A program made the position numbers and the translations under genes. Source: Pseudomonadota bacterium (GTDB lineage Bacteria > Pseudomonadota > Gammaproteobacteria > Burkholderiales > JABEVD01). Taken from it: a stretch of DNA of 34,724 nt. The stretch is from NCBI GenBank assembly GCA_021835845.1, contig JAKBJU010000021.1, positions 1 to 34,724 of the forward strand, in the 5' to 3' direction. The first letter of the stretch is position 1; every line of letters begins with the position of its first letter. Of the stretch, positions 34,301 to 34,724 are shown one piece after another. The notes under the pieces are model-generated. The model did not search any database. It was given only the letters and a program-made list of their open reading frames with translations, and was not told where the DNA came from.

Positions 34301-34377
34301 GGGTCTGTAGCTCAGTTGGTTAGAGCAGGGGACTCATAATCCCTTGGTCCACGGTTCAAGTCCGTGCGGACCCACCA
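34301..34377 (+). tRNA. tRNA with CAU anticodon, probably tRNA-Ile2 (else elongator tRNA-Met)
   Basis: A complete 77-nt cloverleaf: acceptor GGGTCTG/CGGACCC, D-arm with AGCTCAGTTGGTTAGAGC, anticodon stem-loop GGGGA-CTCATAA-TCCCT (anticodon CAT at 34335-34337), variable loop, T-arm CACGG-TTCAAGT-CCGTG, and encoded CCA. The anticodon arm and the following TTGGTC...GGTTCAAGTCC resemble E. coli tRNA-Ile2, including the G-T pair at 27-43, whose C34 is changed to lysidine by TilS to read AUA. The acceptor stem is mixed in its TilS features (C5-G68 present, T4-A69 in place of C-G), so elongator Met remains possible. A tRNA of this kind follows rpoD in several proteobacteria and is a known type of integration site. 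Confidence 0.93.
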
Positions 34378-34386
34378 TTATAAAAC

Positions 34387-34419
34387 AACCGGTTATGATA
34401 ACTCATGGCCGGTTTTTTT
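34387..34419 (+). terminator. Intrinsic terminator of the tRNA gene
   Basis: Stem AACCGGTTATGA (34387-34398), loop TAAC, stem TCATGGCCGGTT (34403-34414), 12 bp with two G-T pairs, followed by T-run 34415-34419. It sits ten bases after the tRNA CCA end. Confidence 0.85.
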
Positions 34420-34438
34420 ATTGACAAAGCCAATCCTG

Positions 34439-34457
34439 TGTGCAAAAGTTTTGCACA
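34439..34457. repeat. 19-bp perfect palindrome before the integrase gene
   Basis: TGTGCAAAA, central G, TTTTGCACA: two perfect 9-bp arms. It lies between the tRNA terminator and the integrase start, 28 bp before the ATG. A good -35 TTGACA (34421-34426) is just upstream but has no matching -10. An operator for a dimeric regulator of integration is plausible; nothing in the window identifies the binding protein. Confidence 0.6.
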
Positions 34458-34485
34458 TGATCCGTTTTTTCGTGGGATATGTGCA

Positions 34486-34724
34486 ATGTCAGTATTTGAG
34501 ATCGCGAAAGGTCGATACCGTGTTCAAGTTCGACGAAAAGGCTTTCCATCCTTTGATCAGGTGTTTTCTACCCGAGAACAAGCCGAGGCGGCACAAGCGA
34601 GAGTTCTTGGGGAACAGACTGTTGTCTTGAAGCCAGGGGATATCACGCTAAATGAAGCGTGGGACCGATATCGTGATTCTGTTGATTTTTCGACGAAATC
34701 GGAAAGCGCGGATTCAATTTTGAA
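34486..34724 (+). CDS. Tyrosine-type site-specific integrase, N-terminal part (cut by window edge)
   Basis: An open frame from ATG 34486 runs to the window end without a stop (79 full codons). The N-terminus MSVFEIAKGRYRVQVRRKGF is the arm-type DNA-binding domain seen in many phage and island integrases (K-GRYRV-VRRKGF, then F-TREQAEA). The part near the edge, LNEAWDRYRDSVDFSTKSE, starts the SAM-like core-binding domain. The catalytic domain lies outside. It reads away from the tRNA 109 bp downstream of the CCA end, the classic layout of an element integrated in a tRNA 3' end. Local composition is visibly more AT-rich than the operons to the left. There is no strong Shine-Dalgarno (GGGAT only). 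Confidence 0.75.
   Translation, partial: MSVFEIAKGRYRVQVRRKGFPSFDQVFSTREQAEAAQARVLGEQTVVLKPGDITLNEAWDRYRDSVDFSTKSESADSIL

Follow-up and report, generated by a model that had tools for sequence, protein, structure and literature searches.

A tyrosine integrase gene cut by a contig end beside the CAU tRNA gene that follows rpoD: probable left junction of an integrative element

The analyzed DNA (34,724 bases, referred to below as the window) comprises the whole of contig G000:C1 of a 2.2-Mb assembly of 32 contigs, so that the edge of the window is also the edge of the contig. Taken as a whole, its right end is very probably best explained as the left junction (attL) of an integrative element, with a CAU tRNA gene located directly after rpoD and the 5′ part of a putative tyrosine integrase gene directed away from it. 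Mobile genetic islands typically have their left edge at such a place, with an integrase gene just after a tRNA gene. According to the proposed sequence of events, a circular element, equipped with a tyrosine integrase gene and with its own copy of the tRNA-Ile2 (CAU) 3′ half, would have entered the chromosome by recombination at the tRNA gene downstream of rpoD, with strand exchange in the anticodon stem-loop. The tRNA would then have been restored by the copy supplied by the element, and the displaced native 3′ half would be expected at the other end. The N-terminal domain of the integrase is predicted to bind TGTGCAA-type arm sites, one of which overlaps the start codon.

The tRNA gene (34301–34377, + strand; ARAGORN) is preceded in the window by dnaG and rpoD. 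The latter (32301–34196, + strand; NCBIfam NF004208 RpoD, 919 bits, cut-off 555) is the chromosomal left neighbor of the site, and its C-terminus was also found in 26 of the 29 fetched loci of other genomes that contain the same tRNA. A terminator-like hairpin with a T run is located 3′ of the tRNA (34387–34414, + strand); the pattern scan detected two such hairpins in the stretch, compared to a mean of 0.9 (SD 1.0) in shuffled sequences, which is a weak signal by itself. The G+C content falls from 59% (1–34300) to 44% (34378–34724), and none of 678 sampled 347-base windows was as AT-rich as the latter segment; this sharp drop favors an integrative element. The earlier note had placed a CAU tRNA directly after rpoD, followed by an integrase-like frame more AT-rich than its neighbors, reading away from the tRNA and lacking a stop codon; all of these observations were confirmed.

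The frame contains in-frame ATG codons at 34405 and 34486, and similarity to related proteins starts at the second of these, 108 bases after the tRNA gene. From there it remains open up to the last base (34486–34724, + strand; 79 codons), in agreement with the proposal that an integrase gene is cut by the edge. A search of 399 genomes of the order with the 79-residue fragment gave matches in nine, the own genome included. The four best of the other matches are long frames, with identities of 49% (G041), 47% (G269), 42% (G112) and 38% (G340), the first three of these proteins being full-length. No integrase match was obtained in Pfam or NCBIfam, so the identification of the fragment relies on its relatives and on PHROG 1 “integrase” (E = 0.0014). 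PF00589 was recognized in both full-length relatives tested (E = 4e-13 and 1e-15). On this comparative basis, the 79 readable residues are identified as the N-terminus of a tyrosine integrase, the likeness being more than chance. In four full-length relatives, residues R202, K227, H291, R296/R297, H319 and Y328 (G269 numbering) are invariant; the R, H, R, H and Y blocks presumably represent the catalytic residues of a tyrosine recombinase. The corresponding part of the window's gene would lie past the contig end.

A model of nine aligned N-termini (pLDDT 75, pTM 0.43) predicts three strands and a helix. Foldseek analysis of this model returned no significant match, the top three (two AP2 domains and lambda integrase) each having an E value of 0.78. 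Tyrosine recombinases with an arm-binding domain (PMC8138268) share with the present case the predicted N-terminal arrangement of three strands and a helix, the PF00589 domain seen in the relatives, and short motif repeats near both ends of the related elements, placed as would be expected of arm sites. They differ in that no Pfam arm-binding model matched either the fragment or the two full-length relatives tested. The lack of a Pfam or NCBIfam match to the fragment, and of a significant Foldseek match to the model, counts against the interpretation as an integrative element.

A scan of one genome per species yielded 27 loci. Those with at least 38% identity, together with G269, constitute nine close relatives: G041 (L081), G269, G112 (L080, a Sulfuricella MAG), G340 (L084, Vogesella), Caballeronia, Rivibacter, Duganella flavida, Duganella sp. 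OV510 and Paludibacterium. The integrase of every one of them starts 100–175 bases 3′ of a tRNA and points away from it. This tRNA has a CAU anticodon in seven cases and is tRNA-Lys in Caballeronia and tRNA-Leu in Vogesella; beside the Rivibacter integrase, just the 5′ half of the tRNA is present. Of the eight non-self matches of the order-wide search, four were left out of this set; two of these also adjoin a tRNA (G143, Lys; G042, Asn), and none was found in the stretch read for G281 and G323. The remaining 19 of the 27 loci were likewise left out (L086 at 31% identity and 18 at 22–28%). An upstream tRNA within 3 kb is present at four of them (L086 Ala, L087, L088, L103 Leu) and absent from the other 15, a point against the interpretation as an integrative element. 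The Paludibacterium integrase (L120) is interrupted, its N-terminal (1363–1851) and C-terminal (6381–6842) parts lying about 4.5 kb apart.

The window tRNA was labeled Met by ARAGORN, from its anticodon CAT. Nevertheless, it shows 81% identity to an E. coli CAU tRNA that is annotated as tRNA-Ile, compared to 72% and 62% identity to the two other CAU tRNAs of its own genome (drawn from 34 tRNA matches, one of which, L158, received no ARAGORN call). The five E. coli matches listed (of 5989 records) comprise four of 59 bits, all tRNA-Lys, and one of 71 bits, the tRNA-Ile just mentioned, which is itself a CAU tRNA. The other two CAU tRNAs of the own genome resemble elongator and initiator tRNA-Met. 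Since the window tRNA is closer to the E. coli tRNA-Ile than to either of these, it is probably, by sequence similarity, tRNA-Ile2 and not tRNA-Met. This revises the target to what is probably tRNA-Ile2. That tRNA is essential and has to be restored by the element.

The far ends of the related elements support a tRNA attachment site, as had been suggested for the window. In five of the nine relatives, the 3′ part of the tRNA is repeated in the same orientation 13–75 kb away: G112 (46 bp, 20.5 kb), Caballeronia (49 bp, 24.1 kb), Paludibacterium (59 aligned columns, 96.6% identity, 26.4 kb), Duganella sp. OV510 (46 bp, 13.0 kb) and D. flavida (46 bp, 75.1 kb). In a sixth, Rivibacter, the tRNA is split, with its 5′ half at one end and its 3′ half 33.2 kb further on. 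The G041 and G340 contigs stop 14.3 and 3.7 kb beyond the tRNA, respectively, and no far end was detected within the 80 kb searched in G269. These repeats, the position of all nine integrases 3′ of a tRNA and the invariant residues described above all favor an integrative element; the G269 integrase, having no recognizable far end, counts against it.

The far repeats begin at tRNA positions 28–32, and the only block common to both Rivibacter junctions is GGACTCATAATC, which places the crossover in the anticodon stem-loop. By analogy with the relatives, the predicted crossover block GGACTCATAATC of the window lies at 34330–34341 (+ strand). Such crossovers are a known class: Islander records 2083 of 3919 islands as anticodon-centered (PMC4383910). 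As described there, class A islands have a tyrosine integrase beside a tRNA, as does the window, and a displaced 3′ tRNA fragment that begins at the anticodon stem-loop and marks the far end, as do the relatives. The one principled difference from that description is that the far fragment was not seen in the own genome. The two features by which an island is recognized at one end, an intact tRNA and an integrase, are both present (34301–34377; 5′ part from 34486).

In Rivibacter (G400:C1), the 33-kb element splits a tRNA-Ile2-like gene (5′ half, L116:1435–1475; 3′ half, L117:16177–16224) and carries a different, 79-base CAU tRNA (C1:195487–195565). The sequence GACTCATAATC occurs exactly three times in this genome, in both tRNA halves and in the internal tRNA, a search that could miss a tRNA-Ile2 with a different stem.

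The region between the tRNA and the integrase contains three copies of a short motif: TGTGCAA at 34439, TTGCACA at 34451 and TGTGCAA at 34480. The first two form the pair TGTGCAA-N5-TTGCACA (34439–34457, no strand assigned; predicted integrase arm sites 1 and 2), a rare pair with conserved spacing. The last base of the third copy (34480–34486, + strand; predicted arm site 3) is the first base of the ATG codon. The same three copies are found at identical offsets (0, +12, +41) in G041 and G269, and two or three copies lie between the tRNA and the integrase start for all ten integrases (that of the window and those of the nine relatives). Each of the six bounded relatives also has copies just inside the far end, no more than about 130 bp from it (four each in G112, Caballeronia and D. 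flavida, three each in Paludibacterium and Rivibacter, one in OV510). The 20–33 kb interiors of the four elements counted contain only two or three. In the window the three copies are all on the left side.

The pair occurs, with at most one mismatch, only once in the own genome (control, 0). The genomes of the nine relatives and that of L086 contain one to three pairs each, 16 in total, and 12 of these are island ends; the reversed motif gave one match in each of two of these ten genomes. The four pairs away from islands (one each in G041, D. flavida, the L086 genome and Paludibacterium) count against the interpretation as an integrative element. Because the motif clusters on both sides of the crossover, as arm sites do, the copies are probably arm sites of the integrase, as judged from their placement, and their presence at both ends is a further argument for an integrative element. 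A reading of the motif solely as an operator was set aside, since there are clusters of copies at the far end as well. In three distant Pasteurellaceae relatives (25–28% identity), TTGCACCC repeats are found instead, which would fit the arm site and the integrase changing together. In one integrase paper, TGTGCAA appears within PCR primers.

As arm site 3 meets the start codon, self-repression is possible, and the integrase may repress itself in the manner of IntS of KplE1. The argW–intS junction of the KplE1 prophage (PMC2951348) is similar in that the tRNA is followed by a codirectional integrase gene, with predicted arm sites in the promoter region. It differs in that self-repression is predicted there mainly at tRNAs other than tRNA-Ile and where the intergenic region exceeds the 108 bases found in the window.

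Comparison with the same genus supports the site. The tRNA was recovered in four of the eight genomes searched; in the other four (G004, G005, G006 and G008), matches were weak or lacking, which makes these genomes uninformative. G003, whose tRNA is identical to that of the window, contains an 8.1-kb island bounded by repeats of 93 columns (95.7% identity), and G007 a 19.7-kb island bounded by repeats of 94 columns (92.6%). Both islands carry other PF00589 integrases, located at the far end. One contig of G001 begins at a tRNA 3′ fragment, and SNF2-type and AAA proteins are encoded after the tRNA itself; the G002 contig ends 297 bases after the tRNA. The genus carries different islands at the CAU tRNA beside rpoD, which is a hotspot, and the G003 and G007 islands favor an integrative element in the window. 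The literature search found no paper on tRNA-Ile/lysidine islands or on rpoD/tRNA-Met/Burkholderia islands.

The far side of the element was sought in the own genome. DNA, tRNA-end and motif searches of the 2.2-Mb assembly failed to reveal another copy of the tRNA 3′ end, and the last 25 bases of the tRNA occur only once at up to three mismatches; the end of the contig 347 bases after the tRNA limits this search. Among the eight PF00589 matches of the genome (frames of 306–432 residues), none fitted the rest of the integrase, defined as a frame resembling a gene that lacks its first 79 codons. The search with the family alignment used a cut-off of 1e-40, a stringency at which a fragment could have been missed. 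No second motif pair with at most one mismatch was found either. These three negative results count against the presence of the element. The interpretation given in the earlier note is regarded as partly supported: it is sound as far as it could be checked, and the island itself is absent from the assembly.

Genome G001 offered a way to locate the missing side. There, amt (TIGR00836, 304 bits, below the cut-off of 343) lies about 40 bases after the end region of the tRNA 3′ fragment. The own amt (93% identical) is on contig C4 (83658–84859), 357 bases from its right end, and C4 is probably the right neighbor of the window's contig, the tract between the two being missing from the assembly. These 357 bases contain no tRNA fragment and resemble, by eye, the end of an insertion sequence. 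The empty site was not observed: amt was near the tRNA in none of 38 loci, most of which extend only 1.5 kb to the right. In G007, the right neighbors of the island (L044, 2845–6638) are, by eye, nitrogenase-cluster and ferredoxin-like genes, not amt as in G001.

The strongest alternative, although rather unlikely, is a decayed remnant: the integrase and left junction would be all that survives of an island otherwise deleted or overwritten, with core genes shortly beyond. The IS-like sequence beside the own amt and the lack of a tRNA fragment there are consistent with this, as is G269, where the integrase is followed by transposase-like and then core-like genes (named by eye); as no far end follows within 80 kb, G269 may itself be such a remnant. 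However, tRNA repeats bound five of the nine relatives, and the frame, motifs and tRNA of the window look intact as far as they are present.

Three other integrases near tRNAs were identified in the assembly. One (C18:125–511), near tRNA-Pro(CGG) (1297–1373), also runs into a contig end; the others lie near tRNA-Thr(CGT) (C4:3729–4199; tRNA at 4308–4383) and tRNA-Met(CAU) (C21:107014–107469; tRNA at 108344–108420). The window contains a second tyrosine recombinase (21734–22252; ORFs 21410–22294 and 21520–22503; PF00589, 189 bits) with no tRNA beside it in the window, which is perhaps a Xer-type enzyme.

Analysis of larger ORFs chosen from related elements (12 of 19 in G112 and 9 of 21 in Caballeronia, besides the G112 integrase) indicated the nature of their cargo. 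In G041, four of five proteins gave PADLOC matches (AbiL twice, AbiU and NsnA). The six tested in G112 comprised type I restriction, methylase and specificity subunits, a DRT4-like reverse transcriptase, a GmrSD-like protein and one weak match, and all five Caballeronia proteins matched defence families (BrxL, PglZ, PglX, BrxC and GajB). PHROG scanning of ten further G112 and Caballeronia proteins identified a primase/helicase near the G112 far end and, in Caballeronia, a protein resembling helicase loaders; none of the ten matched a phage structural family. As judged from these matches, the relatives examined carry anti-phage defence genes.

The earlier note had expected a prophage or a genomic island to the right of the tRNA, and the prophage half of this expectation is not favored by the ORFs examined in the relatives, which are defence and replication-type genes, with no phage structural family among the ten proteins scanned with PHROGs. 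A prophage in place of a defence or satellite-type island is improbable: PHROG 1 integrases do occur in phages and tRNA genes are common prophage sites, but the fragment matched nothing in the phage collection, the plasmid collection or the viral contigs, and the family alignment gave only two weak matches (25% and 30% identity) in the viral contigs. An assembly or binning error that fused a foreign end to the tRNA, as the contig end in a 32-contig assembly and the shift in composition at the tRNA might suggest, is highly improbable, because the tRNA–integrase layout and motif offsets match those of independent genomes and G003, of the same genus, has an identical tRNA.

The integrative element proposed here is of an ordinary kind, with a well resolved attachment system. 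Tentatively, and with lower confidence, it may belong to an undescribed clade of defence-carrying elements, mostly of betaproteobacteria, characterized by TGTGCAA arm sites at either end and by entry mostly into the anticodon stem-loop of tRNA-Ile2, a joint reading that includes Rivibacter, where the tRNA was left split and the island-borne CAU tRNA may have taken over its function.

The rare motif TGTGCAA-N5-TTGCACA points to both ends of related islands, and the present case illustrates that contig ends can hide mobile elements. For the genus, the CAU tRNA beside rpoD constitutes a recurrent island entry site. If the island-borne tRNA has indeed taken over in Rivibacter, the island would be indispensable to its host.
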